The notes under the pieces were generated by a model that was not told the origin of the DNA, did no database searches, and saw only the letters and a list, made by a program, of their open reading frames with translations. DNA of 29,531 nt, taken from positions 1 to 29,531 of the IMG/VR virus record IMGVR_UViG_3300013126_000169; one strand, written 5' to 3'. The position numbers and the translations under genes were made by a program. Shown here piece after piece: positions 19,245 through 29,531 of the stretch (positions are counted from its first letter, which is position 1; the number at the start of each line of letters is the position of its first letter). The stretch comes from a virus.

Positions 19245-19805
19245 TCAAGAATCAGCAGAGAGGGTGAAGCTCGGACCATTCAGCTCCAGCACGGCCAGGC
19301 CGCTGCTAGTAGTAGAAGTGAGGAAACGAGCGCCAGCCAGCCGCACGGTTTTGCCCGAAGCGAAGGCATGGGAGAATTGACCAGCTTTACCAGTGCCGCT
19401 AGCTGAATACAGCACACGCACGGGGGAAGCAGGGGTGACAGCGCCAGTCACGTAGACGGCCACAGCACCTTCGTTCACCACGTTGAGAGCTTGCTTGTCC
19501 TTCACGCCAGGACGGCTGTTGGAATCAAGGGCGGTCTCGTCAACATAGGTGAGAGCATTCAGACCCAGAACGGTGTCGGAAGCGCCAGAAATAGTGGTAG
19601 CAGAATTGGCAACAGTGCCAGCGGTGTTATAAACCACCAGATTACCGAAAGCCAGCACAGCGCCGGTTTCGTTAAGGCCAGTGGAGATGGTGTTGTCGCG
19701 AATGTCGGACAGTTGGCCTTCAAGCAGGGCGGCGTGGGCGAGAGCATAGCTCTGTTGCACACCACCAGCCGTAGCAGTGCCCGAGGCAGAGAAAGAAACG
19801 GCCAT
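19245..19805 (-). CDS. head decoration / structural cement protein (186 aa)
   Basis: A small Ala/Gly/Ser/Thr-rich beta protein directly upstream of the capsid gene. It has a GLNETGAVLAFGNLVVYNTA segment and NVVNEGAVAVYVTGAVTPAS, then GKTVRLAGARFLTST. These are features of capsid-stabilising cement proteins such as the DUF2190-like / gp24 type. AAGGAGG lies 10 nt before ATG 19805, inside the end of the protease gene, so translation is strong and independent. Role: binds the outer shell after expansion (family knowledge). Confidence 0.65.
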   Translation of the reverse strand: MAVSFSASGTATAGGVQQSYALAHAALLEGQLSDIRDNTISTGLNETGAVLAFGNLVVYNTAGTVANSATTISGASDTVLGLNALTYVDETALDSNSRPGVKDKQALNVVNEGAVAVYVTGAVTPASPVRVLYSASGTGKAGQFSHAFASGKTVRLAGARFLTSTTSSGLAVLELNGPSFTLSADS

Positions 19806-19807
19806 AA

Positions 19808-20425
19808 TTACTTAGCCTCCTTGGAGATGGAGAGGGGCTTCTTCCAGGCGTTCTGCAGATTGTCCATATAGGACGAAGGAGCAGACATGGGGGAAGCAAT
19901 GGAAGCTACGGCTTTACGCAGCTCATCAGTGGTGGCAGAGTCCTTGCGGGACGCCTCCAGAGTGTCAAACATGGCCTGCACGTAGTCATCAGACCTTTCG
20001 GACAGGTCAATGCTGTCGCCGCGAACGGCTTGGATGGCATCAACCATCACTTCACGAGCTTCTTTGCCGCTGAAATCATAAGCAGCATCGAGAACAGGCT
20101 TGGCTTTTTCGATGAGGGAAAGACGCTCTTCCACCATGGAATCAAGATTGATTTCCTTGGCAGTAGCCAGATCGGCTTTCAGTTCCTCAACGTGCTCGGC
20201 CAGGGCATCGGCGCGGCCTTCGGCAGCGTCGCACTTGCCTTGCATTTTCTTTTCCATGGCGTCCATTTCGGCTTTCATGGAATCGGCAGCGGCCTGCAGC
20301 TCGTCGTATTTTTTCTTCATGTCCTCATAGGACATTTTGGCGTCTTCGCGTTCTTTCGTGATCGCAAGAGCAACGCTCTCCGTCACTTCAAACTCGGCGC
20401 CATCAAAAACGACTTTTGCAGTCAT
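19808..20425 (-). CDS. nested scaffold protein from internal start (205 aa, in frame)
   Basis: ATG 20425 (codon 193 of the protease gene) falls exactly in the linker between the protease and coiled-coil scaffold parts and is preceded by GGAG at 8 nt spacing (20437-20434). A separate scaffold product, MTAKVVFDGAEFEV..., would be made in excess over the fusion, as lambda Nu3 is within C. The site is better than that of the full-length start, so the scaffold-only form may be the main product. Not proven by sequence alone. Confidence 0.6.
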   Translation of the reverse strand: MTAKVVFDGAEFEVTESVALAITKEREDAKMSYEDMKKKYDELQAAADSMKAEMDAMEKKMQGKCDAAEGRADALAEHVEELKADLATAKEINLDSMVEERLSLIEKAKPVLDAAYDFSGKEAREVMVDAIQAVRGDSIDLSERSDDYVQAMFDTLEASRKDSATTDELRKAVASIASPMSAPSSYMDNLQNAWKKPLSISKEAK

Positions 20426-21001
20426 TAGACGGTCTCCGTTATTAGAGAGTAAGGATGGATCAGCAGCATCTTGACGATCAAGATGAAGCTTCACTTGCGG
20501 GCCTGCGCGGCCCCGACGAACAACGGCAATGTGATTACCGATGATTTCCTTTTGGACACCATCGTAATGTTCGCCGTTTTCTGTAACGCCAGGCGTGGGA
20601 TCATAATTCACCCGATAGCCCGCGCTCACTTCACGAGCATCACCGCGCATAATACGTTCAATGGCTTCTTTGTCCGTAATTGTCATTACGGCCTTAACAA
20701 AACCATCGTCGTAAACCACTTCAGTGCCGCTAAATCCTACTTGGTAGTCTTTAGTATTTTCAGCATCAAGAAGAACTGGGGGATGTTCAGAAGTGATAGC
20801 TTTGCCCGCAAATGAGGCCAAGCTTTCTGGAGACGCCACTTCAACAGCGGGACGATATTCACGACGGACTGAGCCATCAGCGTCTGTGTAGAGCTGAATG
20901 CCAGTGCGAGCAATCGAAGCCCACGCCCGAAGGTAGCCTTCTGGCGTCATTTCGTATTTCTCAATTGGCGAGAAATCGTACCGATAAGAGATGGTGCTCA
21001 T
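19808..21001 (-). CDS. prohead protease fused to scaffold, DUF2213-type (397 aa)
   Basis: Residues 1-175 are a DUF2213-like prohead serine protease. ITSEHPPVLL places the catalytic His at 73, REVSAGYRVNYD places Ser at 126, and GNHIAVVRRGRAGPQV at 156-170 is the conserved third motif. Residues about 215-290 are a highly charged coiled coil (MKKKYDELQAAADSMKAEMD) typical of scaffold, ending in a helical C-terminus. The protease and scaffold are thus one polypeptide, as in lambda C/Nu3. ATG 21001 has no Shine-Dalgarno sequence, whereas the internal Met193 does. The codons are GC-rich. The upstream gap faces the divergent regulator gene. Confidence 0.85.
   Translation of the reverse strand: MSTISYRYDFSPIEKYEMTPEGYLRAWASIARTGIQLYTDADGSVRREYRPAVEVASPESLASFAGKAITSEHPPVLLDAENTKDYQVGFSGTEVVYDDGFVKAVMTITDKEAIERIMRGDAREVSAGYRVNYDPTPGVTENGEHYDGVQKEIIGNHIAVVRRGRAGPQVKLHLDRQDAADPSLLSNNGDRLMTAKVVFDGAEFEVTESVALAITKEREDAKMSYEDMKKKYDELQAAADSMKAEMDAMEKKMQGKCDAAEGRADALAEHVEELKADLATAKEINLDSMVEERLSLIEKAKPVLDAAYDFSGKEAREVMVDAIQAVRGDSIDLSERSDDYVQAMFDTLEASRKDSATTDELRKAVASIASPMSAPSSYMDNLQNAWKKPLSISKEAK
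20434..20437 (-). promoter_or_regulatory. internal ribosome binding site for the nested scaffold
   Basis: GGAG on the minus strand, 8 nt from ATG 20425, within the inter-domain linker of the protease-scaffold gene. Confidence 0.55.
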
Positions 21002-21064: not shown

Positions 21065-21346
21065 ATGATGTTTCTTGCAAGGGGCAATGCGGACGTGCTT
21101 AAAATGCCGCACCATCAGGCGCGGCTTCTTATTGCCCAACGAGTAAAAGATGCTCGCCTCAATAGTGGCCTATCACAAAAAGACGTGGCCGAAGTCCTTC
21201 ACGTCAGCCAAAGCTCTTACTCTCGCATGGAACGCGCCGAATTGGCTCCAGATTGCGTGCAAATACGCACCCTTAGTGGTCTCTATGGAATTAGCGTATT
21301 GTGGCTTATGGGCTATCCATCTTTCATCGCCCATACAAAGAATTAA
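21065..21346 (+). CDS. XRE/Cro-CI family helix-turn-helix regulator (93 aa)
   Basis: Residues 24-80 form a complete HTH_3 domain: QRVKDARLNSGLSQKDVAEV, then LHVSQSSYSRMERAELAPDC, ending ISVLWLMGYP. The recognition helix is around VSQSSYSRMERA. There is no dimerisation or peptidase domain, so it is Cro-like in size. The exact start is uncertain: two consecutive ATG codons (21065, 21068) and one at 21104, none with a ribosome binding site. It runs against the head genes, is antisense to any transcript linking 21343 and 21001, and overlaps the convergent gene by 4 nt. It may regulate the late operon or the host, or be a moron-type insertion; no integrase or second repressor is in view. Confidence 0.85.
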   Translation: MMFLARGNADVLKMPHHQARLLIAQRVKDARLNSGLSQKDVAEVLHVSQSSYSRMERAELAPDCVQIRTLSGLYGISVLWLMGYPSFIAHTKN

Positions 21347-22284: not shown

Positions 22285-23001
22285 TCAATTAATAAATCCT
22301 ATCGGAGCCGTGGCAATTTTTACATTGGGCAACACTCTATCCCGATGTAAAACTAAGCCAGTAATAATGCGCTCAGCAATAAAAGCAATGGCTCGCCTGT
22401 CATATCCTTCAATGGAAAGAAAATGATCTTTATGTTTTTCCCAAATGGGAATAAGAGCATGAAAAAGAACAGTCATAAATTCTTTATATTCCCGCTTCGG
22501 ACCACGCGCCATGTTGCAGCCAATGAATAAATTTTGCGCCCACACTGCATCAATCTCTTCCCTGCTAAACACCCACTGACCACCATCGGCTAGTTCGCGA
22601 GTGATGGCAGGAGCATCAAAGTCACGATGTCCGCCATAGAACTGTTGTTCTAACGAACAAGCAAAAACGGCAGGTTCTGGCACGTACAACGTGTCATCAG
22701 CGTACCATTCATTATGAGGCTCAATCCAATTGCGGCGATACTGAGCATTGCCAATATTTTTTTCTTCTGCATTAAGCATCATCCACTGCACACAACTCAG
22801 CTCCCCCCATCGTTCGTTCAATGCAGACATATAACCACCTTCATCATCAAAAACATAGCCTTCTTTGCGAAGCGCATCGCGCTTCTCATTGTCAATAGCC
22901 CATGCCCCACCAAGAATTGGGACAATTGTGCTTTTGGCTTCGTAACGTACCTTCTCGTCGCCGATGCAAACGGCGTAAATGGTGCAATCAGACGGTTGCA
23001 T
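22285..23001 (-). CDS. DUF4422-like, glycosyltransferase-associated protein (238 aa)
   Basis: Residues 62-74 (NERWGELSCVQWM) and 83-92 (IGNAQYRRNW) match the DUF4422 pattern (N..y.ElT..YW.WkN and vG..HYRR), a family found next to glycosyltransferases and believed to be a GT-A-like sugar transferase. The histidine of HYRR is Gln-Tyr-Arg-Arg here. I chose ATG 23001 (MQPSDCTIYAVC) because GAGGG lies 6 nt upstream; ATG 23028 would add 9 residues and a longer overlap. It overlaps the previous gene's end by 14 nt, so the two are probably coupled. Role: last transferase gene of the cassette (inference). Confidence 0.6.
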   Translation of the reverse strand: MQPSDCTIYAVCIGDEKVRYEAKSTIVPILGGAWAIDNEKRDALRKEGYVFDDEGGYMSALNERWGELSCVQWMMLNAEEKNIGNAQYRRNWIEPHNEWYADDTLYVPEPAVFACSLEQQFYGGHRDFDAPAITRELADGGQWVFSREEIDAVWAQNLFIGCNMARGPKREYKEFMTVLFHALIPIWEKHKDHFLSIEGYDRRAIAFIAERIITGLVLHRDRVLPNVKIATAPIGFIN

Positions 23002-23704
23002 AAACATCCCTCGCGGCCCACAGCTCATTGTAATTATTAACGCTCTTGGCCCCCACGCCAGTCAAGTCGCCACCGCCAGAAGGCTTGCTCCAGGCCATGA
23101 TGGTGCCATCGGGCAAAACAAAAGCCCTGTTCTTCTGCTGATGCGTGGGCGTTAGCTCTAAATAATCGCCATAGACGAAATCGGCCTGACTTCCATTGGA
23201 AGCAAGAGCTTTGCCAAGCAACGTAGGTCCAGTGGGGCACAATGGCGTGATGCCATAGTATTGTTCGATGCAATTTGCCACAATCATTTCAATGGCAGTT
23301 TGCAATGCCGCATTGTTTGGCTTGGAATAGAGGACAGTAGTGGCGCAGGCCCAGCTTGTATAGCTAAAGCGTTGAATATCGCGGAAAGCCAAAAAATTAA
23401 TACGCTCTCCCACGTCCACGGCATTAACTGCTCTAATGGCAATGTCAAAATACCATCCGCCAAAAATGTTCAACAAACAAAATCGGCCAAGATCAGCCTT
23501 GTAAGAAAAAGGCTTCAAACTGTCATAAGCCCATACCACTTCTTTGTCATAATGCTCAGCAATAAAAGCGCGAAGGCTTTCATTGTTATAAATAATATGC
23601 TCCGCATTGGGAAACACATTATCAATGGTGCCAGTGGCGTATTCCAGGAAAGGGCTAAGCTTTTCTTCTGAATTGGTAGTCAAAAAGATTTGTGAAATTT
23701 GCAT
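22988..23704 (-). CDS. DXD-type (Gly_transf_sug-like) glycosyltransferase (238 aa)
   Basis: The core FSYKADLGRFCLLNIFGGWY (residues about 67-86) followed by FDI is the hallmark of the Gly_transf_sug / OCH1-like family (..KaD..Ry..Ly..GG.Y.D.D). The second Asp of the DXD metal motif is replaced: the sequence reads F-D-I-A. A CPTGPTLLGKAL motif near 160 is the usual G-P motif of the family. I chose ATG 23704, 4 nt after the upstream stop; the frame extends only to a TTG. It lies between a GT4 enzyme and a DUF4422 protein, so it probably adds a sugar in the same glycan. Confidence 0.7.
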   Translation of the reverse strand: MQISQIFLTTNSEEKLSPFLEYATGTIDNVFPNAEHIIYNNESLRAFIAEHYDKEVVWAYDSLKPFSYKADLGRFCLLNIFGGWYFDIAIRAVNAVDVGERINFLAFRDIQRFSYTSWACATTVLYSKPNNAALQTAIEMIVANCIEQYYGITPLCPTGPTLLGKALASNGSQADFVYGDYLELTPTHQQKNRAFVLPDGTIMAWSKPSGGGDLTGVGAKSVNNYNELWAARDVYATV

Positions 23705-23708
23705 GGCT

Positions 23709-24932
23709 TCAATCAATTTTTGCGGGAGTACCAAAGCCCTTAAATTCAGGCTCTGCTGGTTTTGCGGCTAATGTTTTTTCGACAATTTCTAACATTTGCT
23801 TCGTAATATAAGGCCAAGTAAGGGCTTCTTCGTGAATACGGTTGTAGCACCACTGACCATCTCTTTTTAGTGAATCTCGGAAATCGTAATAATAAGAAAG
23901 TAATTCGGCGGCAGAATCCGGGTCGGGAAGCAATCGTTCCAAACCATAGTTCCTATCAGTCTCTGCAGCATTACATAAAATCCGTGGCAGTTCGTCAAAA
24001 ATTTCGGCCAGGCTCGTATGATCAGGCACCAGTTGGGCCACGCCAGCGGCAGCATGTTCAGTATTAACCAGGCCCCAACCTTCTCCAATGCAAGTGTTAA
24101 TGCCAATATCGGAAGCGTTGTAAACCATGTTAAGTTGTTCAATGCTTAAGCAATTTGCCGTGGAAAAATGAGGACTAGTAAGAATAAGTTTGCCCGTAGG
24201 ATCATAACCCTCGTCTCGCGCCACACGTTTAAACAATGGGATTAAATCCCATCCCATATCTTTACTGCCCATATTGAGCCACAATCGTGCATCGTCTTTA
24301 TCTTTTGCAAATTTAATAAAAGCCTTAATGGTCAAATCAATTCGCTTGCGCGGTTGATTTCTGTTGCCATTGAAAACAATAAACTTATCTTTTGGTACGC
24401 CCAGCTTTTCTCGACATTCTTCTTTGTCCATTGGAAAAAATTTAGAGAAATCAGTGCCATGTCCCATGATGGCGATTTCTTTTTCGTAGCCAATTTTTTC
24501 AATTTCTGCCGCCCCAAATTTTGTATAAGTGGCAACGCCATCCCATTCATTGATGGGCTCTAAAAGTTCAGGAAATAGTCCATAACTGTCGATGGGAGTG
24601 TAAACAAAAAACTTAAAACCAATGCTTTCTTTAAACGCCTTAACGGCCTTCCATAAGCTAATTCCAATCCAAATATCATTTGTCACCCACACCAAATCGG
24701 GCTTAATTTTTTGAACAAGTTCCCCAATGCGGTGGGAGCCAAACGGATCGGAGCCATGCAACATGGCAGGATAAACTTCATATTTCTTGGCTTCTGGATC
24801 GGGGTCGCCGTGGTAATTAACCGCCAACACACTCACCTCATGGTGCTCAGCTAAGGCGGGAAGCAAATTTTCGGCCACACGTCCAAAGCCGGTTTCAACA
24901 AAAGCGTCGCCGCAGTAGAGGATTTTTGCCAT
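23709..24932 (-). CDS. GT-B glycosyltransferase, family 4-like (407 aa)
   Basis: This is a full-length GT-B enzyme. Its N-terminal Rossmann half starts MAKILYCGDAFVETGFGRVA (Gly-rich acceptor loop). The C-terminal half begins with FIVFNGNRNQPRKRIDLTIK at about 184-203 (donor-phosphate R/K). CIGEGWGLVNTEHAAAG at 281-297 supplies the E-x7-E motif (Glu284 and Glu292). All expected catalytic parts are present, so it is likely active, transferring a nucleotide-sugar-derived residue in the cytoplasm. It is the first minus-strand gene after the divergent 41-bp gap at 24933-24973 and has no Shine-Dalgarno sequence. Confidence 0.85.
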   Translation of the reverse strand: MAKILYCGDAFVETGFGRVAENLLPALAEHHEVSVLAVNYHGDPDPEAKKYEVYPAMLHGSDPFGSHRIGELVQKIKPDLVWVTNDIWIGISLWKAVKAFKESIGFKFFVYTPIDSYGLFPELLEPINEWDGVATYTKFGAAEIEKIGYEKEIAIMGHGTDFSKFFPMDKEECREKLGVPKDKFIVFNGNRNQPRKRIDLTIKAFIKFAKDKDDARLWLNMGSKDMGWDLIPLFKRVARDEGYDPTGKLILTSPHFSTANCLSIEQLNMVYNASDIGINTCIGEGWGLVNTEHAAAGVAQLVPDHTSLAEIFDELPRILCNAAETDRNYGLERLLPDPDSAAELLSYYYDFRDSLKRDGQWCYNRIHEEALTWPYITKQMLEIVEKTLAAKPAEPEFKGFGTPAKID

Positions 24933-24947
24933 GACAAAAATGAATCT

Positions 24948-24975
24948 TTGACATCATAAGGGCCGTTTATACTAT
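24948..24975 (+). promoter_or_regulatory. candidate sigma70-type promoter for the plus-strand pair
   Basis: A perfect TTGACA (24948-24953), 16-nt spacer, and TACTAT (24970-24975). The -10 box overlaps the annotated ATG 24974, so if it is active the transcript would start near 24982, and the first usable start would be Met8 at 24995 or later. Confidence 0.4.
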
Positions 24976-25684
24976 GAGCGCAGCATTTATCAGCATGGTC
25001 TCTCCGCAAATCAAATTTTGCATTAGCACCTGCAAAGCCTTTGCACCACATACAATTCCCGTGGTGATTGGCAGCATGATTCGCTGGGGAATCAAGGCGG
25101 AAGAAATCTTAATTGTCAATGGTGGTTGGGAAGTAGATGCCACCAGTAGCTATAAAGGCGCGGAGATGCTGCTTGTCAAGCAGAATTCGTTTGAATACAC
25201 GCCCCTCATTGAAATTGTTGAGCGTGAACTATGGAGCGATTATTGGTTCCTGCTGCATGACACTTGCACTGTTGGCGAACGGTTTAATTCTCTTGTCCGC
25301 GCATTGCCCGTCGAGCGGCCTGAGAAAGTGGCAATGAAAGGCACGCCGTCCATGAGCGTTGGCCTTTACAGCATGCCCTATCTCATGCAGCATAAAGATC
25401 GCCTAACGGCCATCAAAAACTTTGATCTGTCCCGTGAGGGGCTTCAGGCATGGAAGCAATGGGGCGTGCCGAATGAAGACTATATGCTCTGGAAACTTGG
25501 CGATGTGCCCACACACGTATACCATCCTGAACTGCATGGTCCTGATGAATGGAACTATCAAGGCCATGCCGATTTCTATGACACGGGCCATCCTCGCCGC
25601 GTTGAATATTTTCCTCAGTTAGACCTCTACAAAGCCAAAAGCAATTGGCAGGGTGTTCAGCCAACTCTCTGCATTGACATCTAA
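24974..25684 (+). CDS. putative GT-A-type glycosyltransferase (236 aa)
   Basis: No family is certain. The protein has an IVNGGWEVDATSSY strand-loop and a YWFLLHDTCTVGERFNSLVR segment (residues 90-109), where LLHDTC stands where GT-A enzymes carry the hydrophobic strand plus metal-binding Asp. A P-NEDYMLWKLGDV-H region near 160 resembles the acceptor-side helix of GT2/GT25-like enzymes. Its location in a cluster of sugar genes supports the call. The start is uncertain: ATG 24974 overlaps a candidate -10 box, and Met8 (24995) is the alternative. The end overlaps the next gene as TAATG. Confidence 0.5.
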   Translation: MSAAFISMVSPQIKFCISTCKAFAPHTIPVVIGSMIRWGIKAEEILIVNGGWEVDATSSYKGAEMLLVKQNSFEYTPLIEIVERELWSDYWFLLHDTCTVGERFNSLVRALPVERPEKVAMKGTPSMSVGLYSMPYLMQHKDRLTAIKNFDLSREGLQAWKQWGVPNEDYMLWKLGDVPTHVYHPELHGPDEWNYQGHADFYDTGHPRRVEYFPQLDLYKAKSNWQGVQPTLCIDI

Positions 25685-26664
25685 TGGTTTCCATCGCAAT
25701 TATTGGCGGTGGCTGGACTGGCTGCCACTTAGCGGCCTCGTTTGTGAACGAGGCCAAAGTAACGCTCTATGAAAAAAACGAATGGTTAATTAGCGAAGCG
25801 TCGCTTATCAATCAAAATCGCTTGCATTATGGCTATCACTACGCCAGAGACGGCGCCACAAGACGCCTTTGCCAATCGACTTTCCATCGCTTCCTGGCCG
25901 ATTATGGGCATGTCGTTCAAGACGTGCCTCATAATTTCTATGCAGTGCCAGAGAAAGAAAGTCTTCTCGATGCAGAAACATTGTCTTTGATTTTTAAAAA
26001 CTGGCCCCATCAAGAAATTAAGAACCATCCGCTCCTAAACACTTCTCTTGTTCTCGATACGCAAGAGAAATTTATTAGCTCTATTAAGGCTGGTAAATAT
26101 TTTGATTTTCTTCTTGATCCAATTGTTGTTTACGAAGAAATCAAGCGCAATGATCTGGCCTTGCTCAAGCAAGATTATGATTTTGTTTTTGATTGTACTA
26201 ATAATGCCTTGTTAAAACCAGCCAATGATTGCTTCTTTGAGCAAACAATGATGGCAATTTACAGTCCCAAACAGCAGCTTCCCTTTGAGGCCCTCACCTA
26301 CATTGATGGCCCCCTTTTCTCCATCTATCCCTATTCTTCCTCCCTTTATTCATTGAGTCACGTCGAGCATGGCGTGCTCTCGCAGGGCGCCAGCTTTCCA
26401 GAGCGTCATTGGCCATGGGAAGAACTTCAACCGCATTGGAAGGCCATGGAGCGGCATGCAAAGCAATACTGGCCTGCCTTTGATGATTTCCTCAAGTTTG
26501 AATTTACTTGCGTATCTACAAAGGCCAAAACTAAAAACAAAAGTGCCAATCGCACGCCTGTTTTTAAAACGGAAGACAATCTTCTATCAATTTTTACTGG
26601 CAAGATTCAAGGCATCTATGCCATTGAAGAAACGGCTCGCCAGTTCATTGATAAATCTGCCTAA
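25684..26664 (+). CDS. FAD-dependent oxidoreductase, DAO-like (326 aa)
   Basis: The N-terminus MVSIAIIGGGWTGCHLAASF is a Rossmann dinucleotide-binding fold (GxGxxG at 8-13) with Glu30 at the end of the second strand for FAD ribose. SLINQNRLHYGYHYARDG follows, like the substrate-side segment of amino-acid or sugar-nucleotide oxidoreductases. A C-terminal LLSIFTGKIQGIYAIEETAR closes the FAD domain. The length (326) is a little short for the DAO family. It is translationally coupled (TAATG) to the preceding gene, suggesting oxidation of a sugar intermediate. Its last 20 bp overlap the convergent minus-strand gene. Confidence 0.7.
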   Translation: MVSIAIIGGGWTGCHLAASFVNEAKVTLYEKNEWLISEASLINQNRLHYGYHYARDGATRRLCQSTFHRFLADYGHVVQDVPHNFYAVPEKESLLDAETLSLIFKNWPHQEIKNHPLLNTSLVLDTQEKFISSIKAGKYFDFLLDPIVVYEEIKRNDLALLKQDYDFVFDCTNNALLKPANDCFFEQTMMAIYSPKQQLPFEALTYIDGPLFSIYPYSSSLYSLSHVEHGVLSQGASFPERHWPWEELQPHWKAMERHAKQYWPAFDDFLKFEFTCVSTKAKTKNKSANRTPVFKTEDNLLSIFTGKIQGIYAIEETARQFIDKSA

Positions 26665-27388
26665 ACAAGGGATATTCTCTCATATTCTGCTTGGCCTTAA
26701 ATAATTCCCTAACAACGCCAAATGGATAGCCAAATGTTTCAAGCATTTTCCTGACTTGCTGATGTTCATACTTATTAAGCAACGGACCGTTGTCCGTATC
26801 GCTTACATGCACATGAGCAATGTAAGACGAATAATTTTTTAAAATCTTGCGAGGACTATCGCCCTGTAGCCATGCATTGTTTGTATCAAGCATGGTCTTC
26901 ACGTGATGCAAATTATAGTAGTCAATTAAATTGACAATTTCGCTAACAGTATGGAAATAGCGCCCGCCAAATGCTCTAGCAATTGGTTCAATGCAAAGAA
27001 TGGCATCGTTTGCTTCCAATATTTTATCCATGCGACGCAAAGTGTTCATTAAACATGCAGGACTTCCCTTACGAAGACCTGGACTCCCAAGAATAAAACG
27101 CTTGATTCCCATGTAGGAACCAAGCTTAATCACGCGCAATAAATGTTCAGTGGTGGCTTCAGTATCTTCAAAACTTGCCACATTACTGCCAAAGAATAAT
27201 GCCTGAGCGGAATATGTCCAAAGGCCATATTCCTCGCGATAACGTTTCGCAGTATCAGCCCAGTCTTGATTATTGGCGAAGATGCGGCCTGGTACGATTT
27301 CTAAAATATTAAACGCCCCTGCATTGGCGCTCAATATTTGATCTTCGTCCTCATCTTCCCAGCCAATAGCACTAATTCCGATAAGCAT
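26645..27388 (-). CDS. TIM-barrel sugar isomerase/epimerase-like protein (247 aa)
   Basis: The protein follows the xylose-isomerase-like TIM barrel (AP endonuclease 2 family) layout: N-terminal MLIGISAIGWEDEDED, then LCIEPIARAFGG with Glu134, KTMLDTNNAWLQGD with Asp168, and AHVHVSDTDNG with His192/His194. These are plausible metal ligands of a keto-sugar epimerase. The length agrees with small members of the family. It lies 9 nt after the epimerase-like gene, and its 3' end overlaps the convergent FAD gene by 20 bp. Probable role: making an unusual sugar for the transferases nearby (inference). Confidence 0.75.
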   Translation of the reverse strand: MLIGISAIGWEDEDEDQILSANAGAFNILEIVPGRIFANNQDWADTAKRYREEYGLWTYSAQALFFGSNVASFEDTEATTEHLLRVIKLGSYMGIKRFILGSPGLRKGSPACLMNTLRRMDKILEANDAILCIEPIARAFGGRYFHTVSEIVNLIDYYNLHHVKTMLDTNNAWLQGDSPRKILKNYSSYIAHVHVSDTDNGPLLNKYEHQQVRKMLETFGYPFGVVRELFKAKQNMREYPLFRQIYQ

Positions 27389-27409
27389 ACAATATCACTA
27401 ATTCCGATA
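27370..27409. repeat. 14-bp direct repeat spanning a gene junction
   Basis: CACTAATTCCGATA occurs at 27370-27383 and again at 27396-27409, 12 bp apart. On the minus strand one copy encodes the last codons and stop of the epimerase-like gene and the other the first codons of the isomerase gene. Confidence 0.85.
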
Positions 27410-28117
27410 GGAACGAACAAACACTTCCATCTTGGCCAGCATTTCTTCCTTGCTAGCAAAATATGGTCCTAAATTGTAAGCCGTTCGTGGGCCAATGCCC
27501 ACTCGCGCTCGCGGAAACATGCGCTCAATAATGTCCTTTGTTTCAATGGGCTCGGAAAAGAAATTGTGATAGCCATCTTCCTTGGCCTGCTCTGTATCGT
27601 GCCATAAATCATTGAGATCATACCACTGATAGGCACTGTCAATGTTGACATTATGAAGCTCGTTGTTGTTCAATAAATCGAACAAAATATTCTTCTTAAT
27701 GCGATTATGAAACAATGCAGGAAGGCGGATAACTTTTAACTTTGCACTAGGAAAAGCTTCCCTTATTAAAAGCTCAAATATGCGGCGAGTGGTGCCGTAA
27801 TTAATTTCATCAATTTTGGGCAGTTCAAACACATCTTTCTCATCGCTAAATATGTCGATGGTGGAATATAAAACGACTTCCCTGCATTGCCAATGTTTAA
27901 TATCTTCTACGACAAGCTGCATGTTGGCAAAGTCTCGCAAGGGATCTTGATTGGCTTTCCATTTCTCCGCAGGAAGGCATGCAAGATAAAGCTTGTCAAT
28001 CGTGCCTTGCAGCAGACGAGCACGATGGAGAGTGCGCGAATGGTAGCAATGATCAAAATTGTGACTATCTTGCAGCACAGAACCAATTAGCCCCGTGCTT
28101 CCAACTAATACATCCAT
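27398..28117 (-). CDS. NAD-dependent epimerase/dehydratase-like protein (239 aa)
   Basis: The N-terminus MDVLVGSTGLIGSVLQDSHN is an extended short-chain dehydrogenase Rossmann motif (G.TG.IG, residues 6-12). YSTIDIFSDE parallels the catalytic Ser/Thr strand, and INYGTTRRIFELLIRE is the active-site helix, with Tyr followed three residues later by Arg instead of the usual Lys. At 239 residues it is shorter than typical sugar epimerases (about 300). I chose ATG 28117, 2 nt after the upstream stop; a TTG two codons earlier is the only alternative. Expected substrate: a nucleotide-sugar (inference). Confidence 0.7.
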   Translation of the reverse strand: MDVLVGSTGLIGSVLQDSHNFDHCYHSRTLHRARLLQGTIDKLYLACLPAEKWKANQDPLRDFANMQLVVEDIKHWQCREVVLYSTIDIFSDEKDVFELPKIDEINYGTTRRIFELLIREAFPSAKLKVIRLPALFHNRIKKNILFDLLNNNELHNVNIDSAYQWYDLNDLWHDTEQAKEDGYHNFFSEPIETKDIIERMFPRARVGIGPRTAYNLGPYFASKEEMLAKMEVFVRSYRN

Positions 28118-28119
28118 GC

Positions 28120-28800
28120 TCAAACGGGCACTGCGGGTGCTTGCTGTCGCAGATACTTTACCCTACATTTGCAGTTGGAACGACACGCGCAACGCTGACC
28201 AGGCATGGGCAAACTGCCCATTGGCACCACGCCCCTTGCTGCATAGTCCAGGCAGTCCTGACAATGCTTAGCTTGTGAGTCCAAAATGCGTCGCATCAGA
28301 CTATATCCTTGTCGCTCCTGGCGAATTCCAACGGCCTCCCAATAAGAGCCTCGCACGCTCTCACCGTACATGCTGATACGAGCAAGAGCCATGGGAGTAG
28401 AAACACTGCCAGCCAAAAGATCGCGAGCAAAACTCTCCAAATAACGATATTCCGCACGAAGTCGTTGACCAATTTTGCCCCATTCCGCAGGGCCCATACT
28501 ATCTCGTCCACCACTACCAATAATTGCCACTTGTGCATGGCTAAGCTTCAATGCTTCTCTGACGCTTTCCTGCCATTGCGAAAGCGTAATATCGCCTCGA
28601 CTAAGCATGTTTGTAAAACGCCGTAAATTGCGATTAAGGCGAGAAATTCGACCATCAACCAAAGCCTCCACAGCAGATTCAGAAAGAAAACGTCCGTTAA
28701 GGCCGCGATAACGGCCACTAACAGGAGAGTAAGACCATGATGATTCGTCCAGACGAACAATGGCATCAGCGAATTGCGAGAGATCATTCAGGCTTTGCAT
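28120..28800 (-). CDS. minor head protein, Mu gpF / SPP1 gp7-type (226 aa)
   Basis: The C-terminus carries the motif of phage head morphogenesis proteins: AKHCQDCLDYAARGVVPMGS, then LPMPGQRCACRSNCKCRVKY, with Cys180, 183, 204, 206, 210 and 212, a likely zinc-binding set. The N-terminal two-thirds are helical. GGAGG lies 6 nt before ATG 28800, and the start overlaps the upstream gene by 17 nt. Role: bound to the portal inside the prohead, needed for DNA packaging or ejection (family knowledge). It is followed directly by the sugar cassette, an unusual neighbour. Confidence 0.8.
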   Translation of the reverse strand: MQSLNDLSQFADAIVRLDESSWSYSPVSGRYRGLNGRFLSESAVEALVDGRISRLNRNLRRFTNMLSRGDITLSQWQESVREALKLSHAQVAIIGSGGRDSMGPAEWGKIGQRLRAEYRYLESFARDLLAGSVSTPMALARISMYGESVRGSYWEAVGIRQERQGYSLMRRILDSQAKHCQDCLDYAARGVVPMGSLPMPGQRCACRSNCKCRVKYLRQQAPAVPV

Positions 28801-29503
28801 CCTCCGCCTCCAAAAGATCCTTAAAACGATCAGGCGCTTCTTCTTTCCATTGGTTCAATGCAGCGTCAATATCCTCTGCAGAAATCAAAGCCGCTTCGTC
28901 CAAGTCAGAAAGAATGAGGCCCTCCACTTTCATGGGCTCCATTGCATCCACTTTGCTGCTCACATTTTTGGCAGGACCACGACGTTCGGGATTTGGGTCG
29001 GCCTTGCGCTTGCGGGCAACAATAGTCTGGCGCTCTTCTTTACTCAGGGCTTGAGCTTTAGCCTGAGGCAAGCATTTAGGCTTGCCTTCTTTTTCTGCAC
29101 GGGCTCCGCATGGGCCAAGAATTTCGCCATTGGCGCCAATTCTCACCCACTTTTCATTAAACCATTGCTCTAAATCATCGGCGTTGATTTCGCCTTCATC
29201 GTTTTTAAAGGCACCACTCAGTGAACCATGCTTCTTTTTATAAGCCTGCTTGTACTGCTGCACCACATAACCACTGGCATAAGCCGAAGGCCACACCTTG
29301 AACTTAGACTTGGCTGCGCTCACTGCTTGGGAATGTAGCGTTTTGTCAGTGAATACCACATCGCCACGCACTTTCTCTAGATCACGAGGCAGAAACAAAC
29401 CAGCCGCATCTTCTCGGCTGTCCTCTACTTCCCTGCTTCCGTCCATGGGAAGAGTGCCGTTCTCTTCGTTCAACGGATCACGCCCGCCAGGAGGCACCGC
29501 CAT
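28784..29503 (-). CDS. unrecognised head-region protein with a KVWPSAYASG motif (239 aa)
   Basis: Residues about 65-130 (KFKVWPSAYASGYVVQQYKQ... and WFNEKWVRIGANGEILG) match a motif family I recall as DUF5872-like, with paired KVWPSAYAS and EKWVRI segments. It is found in aquatic phage and giant-virus proteins; the function is unknown. A basic KEERQTIVARKRKADPNPER segment and an acidic C-terminus follow. GAGGG lies 7 nt before ATG 29503, inside a hairpin. In this gene order the portal gene would be expected just upstream, outside the window. Confidence 0.65.
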   Translation of the reverse strand: MAVPPGGRDPLNEENGTLPMDGSREVEDSREDAAGLFLPRDLEKVRGDVVFTDKTLHSQAVSAAKSKFKVWPSAYASGYVVQQYKQAYKKKHGSLSGAFKNDEGEINADDLEQWFNEKWVRIGANGEILGPCGARAEKEGKPKCLPQAKAQALSKEERQTIVARKRKADPNPERRGPAKNVSSKVDAMEPMKVEGLILSDLDEAALISAEDIDAALNQWKEEAPDRFKDLLEAEDAKPE

Positions 29504-29505
29504 CT

Positions 29506-29528
29506 TTCCACCCTCTTTAAGGGTGGAA
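29506..29528 (-). promoter_or_regulatory. hairpin covering the ribosome binding site of the 239-aa gene
   Basis: An 8-bp inverted repeat, TTCCACCC (29506-29513) and GGGTGGAA (29521-29528), with a 7-nt loop. On the minus strand its 3' arm contains most of the GAGGGTGG ribosome binding region, and the stem ends 2 nt before the ATG. No T-run follows, so it is not a typical terminator. Confidence 0.6.
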
Positions 29529-29531
29529 CCA

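Follow-up and report, generated by a model that had tools for sequence, protein, structure and literature searches.

An exchangeable locus for sugar synthesis and transfer in the head operon of S-CBS4-like cyanophages

The window, by which we mean the whole 29,531-nucleotide stretch of viral DNA analysed (IMG/VR record IMGVR_UViG_3300013126_000169), carries a block of seven sugar-related genes at 22285-28123, bounded by a minor head gene and the head protease gene. This block is almost certainly an exchangeable locus for sugar synthesis and transfer in the head operon of S-CBS4-like cyanophages. Judged from gene content in the window and its relatives, the block is composed of two units. Unit 1 comprises a GT4-family and a PF04488-type glycosyltransferase, usually accompanied by a DUF4422 gene, and unit 2 an SDR protein, a TIM-barrel protein, an FAD-dependent oxidoreductase and a GT-A-like protein. 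The best explanation as a whole, an exchangeable locus whose SDR/TIM/FAD trio makes a sugar that is transferred to a virion protein, has in our estimate somewhat more than an even chance of being correct. The head genes of the 29.5-kb record share 77% DNA identity with Synechococcus phage S-CBS4; by sequence relationship the window is a contig related to this phage, and we refer to the virus as a freshwater cyanobacterial one.

The features of the locus are, in late-gene order:

28784-29530, late strand (-): portal C-terminal end, the ORF at the right edge of the window, with DUF5872
28120..28800, - strand: putative minor head protein gene, upstream anchor, adjoining the portal; phrog_24776, 3e-74; homologous to S-CBS4 gp013
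27398..28123, - strand: extended SDR ('epimerase') of unit 2, predicted from an AlphaFold model, PDB fold matches and the motif TGxxGxxG
26645..27388, - strand: TIM-barrel sugar isomerase/epimerase of unit 2; PF01261 (xylose-isomerase-like), 5e-18
25684..26664, + strand: FAD-dependent oxidoreductase (DAO-like) of unit 2; PF01266, 5e-8
24974..25684, + strand: GT-A-like putative glycosyltransferase (236 aa) of unit 2, from fold matches
24933..24973, both strands: divergent promoter-like spacer between unit 2 (+) and the GT4 gene (-), from conservation among relatives
23709..24932, - strand: GT4-family glycosyltransferase, core of unit 1; PF00534, 3e-8; phrog_2170 (glycosyltransferase), 1e-56
22988..23734, - strand: PF04488-type (Gly_transf_sug) glycosyltransferase, core of unit 1; PF04488, 7e-5, just above the cut-off
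22285..23028, - strand: DUF4422 putative glycosyltransferase, exchangeable third slot; PF14393, 4e-12
19808..21001, - strand: head maturation protease, downstream anchor; phrog_530, 3e-105; 80% to the S-CBS4 protease

The right-edge ORF was assigned to the portal because a 683-aa ORF of a relative fuses PF06381 with the same DUF5872, and it was gene position that suggested the name 'minor head'. The start codon of the SDR gene overlaps the stop codon of the minor head gene, and the FAD and TIM genes overlap tail-to-tail. The 236-aa gene probably begins at 24995, giving 229 aa, since its relatives begin there. The first-pass annotation had described seven sugar genes between the minor head and protease genes. 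Each of the seven ORFs was confirmed, and selection on them is purifying, with dN/dS at or below about 0.2 wherever it could be measured. The start of the block at 22285 stands, but its right end had been placed short of the minor head stop codon that it overlaps. Between the DUF4422 gene and the protease lie three small late-strand ORFs and one inverted HTH gene on the + strand. This repressor-like gene (21065-21346) stands inverted between two late genes beside the protease, as does gp021 in S-CBS4.

The protein families and predicted folds agree with the earlier reading of the block as a cassette for making and transferring a sugar. Profile searches gave a Pfam match for five of the seven proteins; the SDR and the 236-aa protein had none, and PDB sequence searches with their profiles returned chance-level matches only, while fold searches resolved both. 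The model of the 241-aa SDR protein was confident (AF2, pLDDT 88.9), with UDP-sugar 4-epimerases and RmlD as top PDB matches, and a bacterial homologue passes PF01370; the model fold and this homologue identify the protein as an extended SDR. In an alignment of 22 phage and bacterial members the TGxxGxxG motif was kept (G8, T10, G11 and G14 invariant). The catalytic YxxxK was absent, Y109 and R113 (YxxxR) being invariant in all 22, so the chemistry may differ from standard epimerisation. The TIM-barrel protein, aligned to D-psicose 3-epimerase, retained the four metal ligands of that enzyme (E134, D168, H194 and E228). In the FAD protein the DAO profile matched residues 4-70, i.e. only the N-terminal FAD-binding Rossmann part; its motifs GxGxxG and NQNRLHxGYHYAR were conserved in 23 viral members. 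Among the cassette enzymes there were also weak NCBIfam matches to keto-sugar epimerases.

The 236-aa protein was modelled with a mean pLDDT of only 63, the N-terminal half being confident. Nearly all of its top structural matches were glycosyltransferases (Foldseek E 2e-6, VIA Z up to 10.2), and no clear DxD was seen; the predicted fold makes it a probable, though not certain, GT-A-like glycosyltransferase. A tblastn search of isolated phages, with the FAD protein and the 236-aa protein as queries, gave no match. The PF04488-type protein (22988-23734) reads GGWYFDIA, its 'DXD' being D-I-A with the second Asp gone, as in the relative L234.

About 100 distinct viral intervals repeat this arrangement of genes, with order and strand unchanged, and the block is therefore not a product of chance. 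A survey of the exact site in distinct relatives, found via their flanking head genes, revealed unit 2 complete in 38 minor-head-to-GT4 intervals, empty in 17 and partial in none. The wider set of relatives contained one exception, L234, which lacks only the 236-aa GT-A-like gene. In relatives without the module the GT4 gene begins about 41-59 bases after the minor head gene. On a head-gene tree (minor head and protease, 39 rows) the distribution of unit 2 requires at least five gains or losses, all forced by well-supported branches. The GT4 gene was present in every compared relative having the site, including S-CBS4 (60%), and the PF04488-type gene in nearly all, whereas the DUF4422 gene was divergent (32-41%) or missing in some. 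Further along the site, the module-less relatives carry a sugar C-methyltransferase, a rhamnosyl-type O-methyltransferase, an FkbM methyltransferase, a DegT aminotransferase, another epimerase or a Methyltransf_23 protein.

Divergence within the cassette is far higher than in its flanks. Between the window and the relative L005, dS was 0.14 in the major capsid protein (MCP) gene and 0.23 in the protease gene, but 1.1-2.3 in cassette genes where not saturated, and the relative L004 has near-identical flanks, yet a GT4 only 70% identical. Both observations point to a recombination hotspot for glycan genes. The close module-less relative L008 is 94-95% identical to the window in protease and GT4. 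The comparison of sequences thus marks the site as a sugar-tailoring hotspot of the whole S-CBS4-like group. The idea of a unique insertion was rejected: the core is common to S-CBS4 and all relatives examined, and only the four-gene half is missing in some. Homing-endonuclease-like ORFs (HNH; GIY-like by eye) occur within the cassette site or next to it in L061 (13878-14390), L147 (3224-3778), L063 (15167-15700) and S-CBS4 (gp017), and these possibly drive cassette exchange. A contig in a Dolichospermum genome assembly (L386) also bears the module. It was rejected as a cyanobacterial copy, since the portal end and minor head genes adjoin; it is an S-CBS4-like phage contig binned into Dolichospermum.

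The 41-base spacer between the two units contains TATACT at 24968-24973 on the + strand, on the side of the inverted pair, and TATGAT on the - strand, on the GT4 side. Of 54 distinct upstream sequences with the module, 45 contained AGTATA/TATACT, against none of 19 without it, and all of these sequences are related rather than independent. In L008, which lacks the module, the GT4-side TATGAT is kept and the TATACT element is missing. A generic promoter and terminator scan of the region found promoter-like sites at chance level, so comparative conservation is the sole evidence here; it is suggestive of a conserved divergent promoter-like element at 24933..24973, and suggestive only. The first-pass annotation had expected the block to be expressed late, during assembly. 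This holds in so far as five of the seven share the orientation of the head operon and the first of them overlaps the minor head gene. A single late block does not fit the FAD and GT-A-like genes (25684-26664 and 24974-25684), which are inverted behind the promoter-like element; shared late timing is not supported for this pair, which may be expressed at another stage.

Relatives of unit 2 were also found in bacteria. A first scan with the 236-aa family gave no bacterial relative, and a scan with the SDR family succeeded, yielding 74 loci after one fragment, the phage contig and one marginal match were left out. The TIM gene was present in 72 of them (directly downstream of the SDR gene in 66), an FAD relative in 70, always on the same strand, and a particular GT2 (L160 type) in 67; copies of the phage's four transferases were not detectable in these loci. 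The trio sits in surface-glycan operons, beside the GT2 and sometimes flippase, GtrA or SMR transporter genes, in carriers such as Gemmiger, Clostridium neonatale, Azospirillum, Sagittula (with GtrA) and Psychrobacter. The phage module resembles these operons in having the same trio, with the SDR gene directly followed by the TIM gene and the FAD gene nearby. In the bacterial operons all genes share one strand and are joined by a GT2 and, in many cases, a transporter gene, whereas in the phage the FAD gene is inverted and has its own GT-A-like partner, and no such GT2 or flippase was found. Among 291 cyanobacterial genomes, SDR-TIM-GT2 occurred in six. Of 201 genomes from a cyanobacterial family in which small genomes prevail, presumably the family of the hosts, one had FAD and SDR genes side by side among transposase-like ORFs, together with a third ORF, similar in size to the TIM gene, for which no match was obtained.

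The conservation of the trio across bacterial loci, including a plasmid, indicates a portable bacterial gene set, and the three enzymes very probably work as one pathway. The earlier suggestion of an unusual sugar gains support from the coherence of this set. Neither the trio nor its product was found described in the literature searched, a body with most subscription papers outside it. It is tempting to speculate that the trio is a hitherto undescribed sugar-nucleotide pathway, passed as a whole from one bacterium to another and captured by cyanophages for interchangeable capsid 'glycan coats', swapped by recombination at one site of the head operon; we put this forward tentatively and would not wager on it. 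The 10.8-kb Psychrobacter plasmid pA22P4 (L398) consists almost only of SDR, TIM, SMR transporter, FAD and GT2 genes and resembles a minimal portable glycan operon.

Eight related records of 68-80 kb contained no NTP_transferase, and the trio would therefore start from a nucleotide sugar of the host, which the SDR, TIM-barrel and FAD enzymes would jointly turn into an unusual sugar. The adjacent GT-A-like protein, together with the core transferases, would then attach this sugar, most likely to a virion protein, the transfer taking place in the cytoplasm during capsid assembly. On the particle, the sugar could change adsorption, stability or recognition. None of the cassette proteins has membrane segments (maximum hydropathy 0.8-1.3, compared with 2.6-3.0 in the bacterial membrane partners), and neither GtrA (PF04138) nor the GT2 family (PF00535) was found in the eight related records, which may be incomplete. 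Both observations favour a cytoplasmic acceptor, most simply a virion protein, and the co-orientation of the core genes with the head genes was counted on the same side. The two module genes on the opposite strand count against this explanation. On balance, a virion protein appears the more probable acceptor. The product of 19245-19805, between the protease and the MCP, contains 23% Ser+Thr, compared with 6-13% in the other proteins tested; on composition alone it is a possible decoration protein and candidate glycan acceptor.

The main rival explanation is that the cassette modifies lipopolysaccharide (LPS) or another surface glycan of the host, during infection or lysogeny, and thereby blocks superinfection. 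In bacteria the trio indeed accompanies GT2, GtrA or SMR transporter genes in operons for surface glycans, and the two + strand genes may escape the late phase. Bacterial LPS-core transferases are likewise soluble, so the missing membrane segments are compatible with a host-surface target too. An integrase is encoded in three of the eight related records, which makes lysogenic conversion possible, and the LPS genes of T4-like cyanophages have been interpreted in this way (PMC9602691). Against such a role, neither in the cassette nor in the related records was a flippase, a GT2-family polyprenyl-phosphate transferase or a membrane protein found, five of the seven genes lie among the head genes in the same orientation, and late expression would come too late for useful exclusion. 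We consider a host-surface target conceivable, although rather unlikely.

The enzyme families of the trio also occur in general sugar metabolism. Together with the weak matches to keto-sugar epimerases, this would suit a small glycosylated metabolite or an altered host carbohydrate flow, i.e. auxiliary metabolism without a macromolecular acceptor. Such a role is improbable, given that the always-kept core consists of glycosyltransferases and that the alternative genes at the site encode tailoring enzymes, for sugars or for C-/O-methyl groups, of a kind typical of glycans. Transfer of the sugar to phage DNA bases as a protection against restriction was judged very unlikely. Sugar-modified phage DNA exists, as with the pentose on cytosine reported for Shewanella phage Thanatos (PMC12838424), but members of the thymidylate synthase/dCMP hydroxymethylase family were absent from the eight related records, the searches matched no known family of DNA glycosyltransferases, and the genes are located among head genes.

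Virion glycosylation, the preferred reading, has precedents, and phage-encoded glycosylation as such is already known. Mycobacteriophages are reported to glycosylate capsid and tail tube with glycosyltransferases that they encode themselves (PMC12363180, citing Freeman 2023). The window shares with these phages (Che8, Corndog and Myrna) the phage-encoded glycosyltransferases, here represented by GT4, PF04488, PHROG 2170 and a GT-A-like fold. Glycosylation was demonstrated there and is predicted here, and a sugar-synthesis trio is not reported for them in the text consulted (PMC12363180). The T4-like cyanophages P-SSM2 and S-SCSM1 likewise encode sugar synthesis and transferases (PMC9602691). 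S-SCSM1 carries GDP-mannose, fucose and rhamnose genes in a large myovirus, unlike the uncharacterised trio in a siphovirus-like head operon. The serotype-converting gtrABC genes are similar in being exchangeable and phage-borne; their GtrA flippase and GT2-family GtrB (bactoprenol transferase) have no counterpart in the eight related records.

The closest parallel is S-CBS4 itself (gp013-gp020), which has the same site between portal/minor head and protease and an orthologous GT4, with another transferase and a methyltransferase after it, but lacks the SDR/TIM/FAD/GT-A-like module. The S-CBS4 records name the genes at this site only as glycosyltransferase, galactosyl transferase and methyltransferase. 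The literature searched gave no description of a head operon that houses an interchangeable, half-inverted module containing a bacterial sugar trio. The locus bears on the wider question of how common glycan decoration is among environmental phages and what purpose it serves. Beyond the phages, it draws attention to a set of three enzymes that is widespread in bacteria and whose chemistry could be worked out from the compact phage version. The S-CBS4-like group offers natural pairs of near-identical heads with and without the sugar module, such as the window and L008, and the same slot holds different tailoring genes in different phages of the group.
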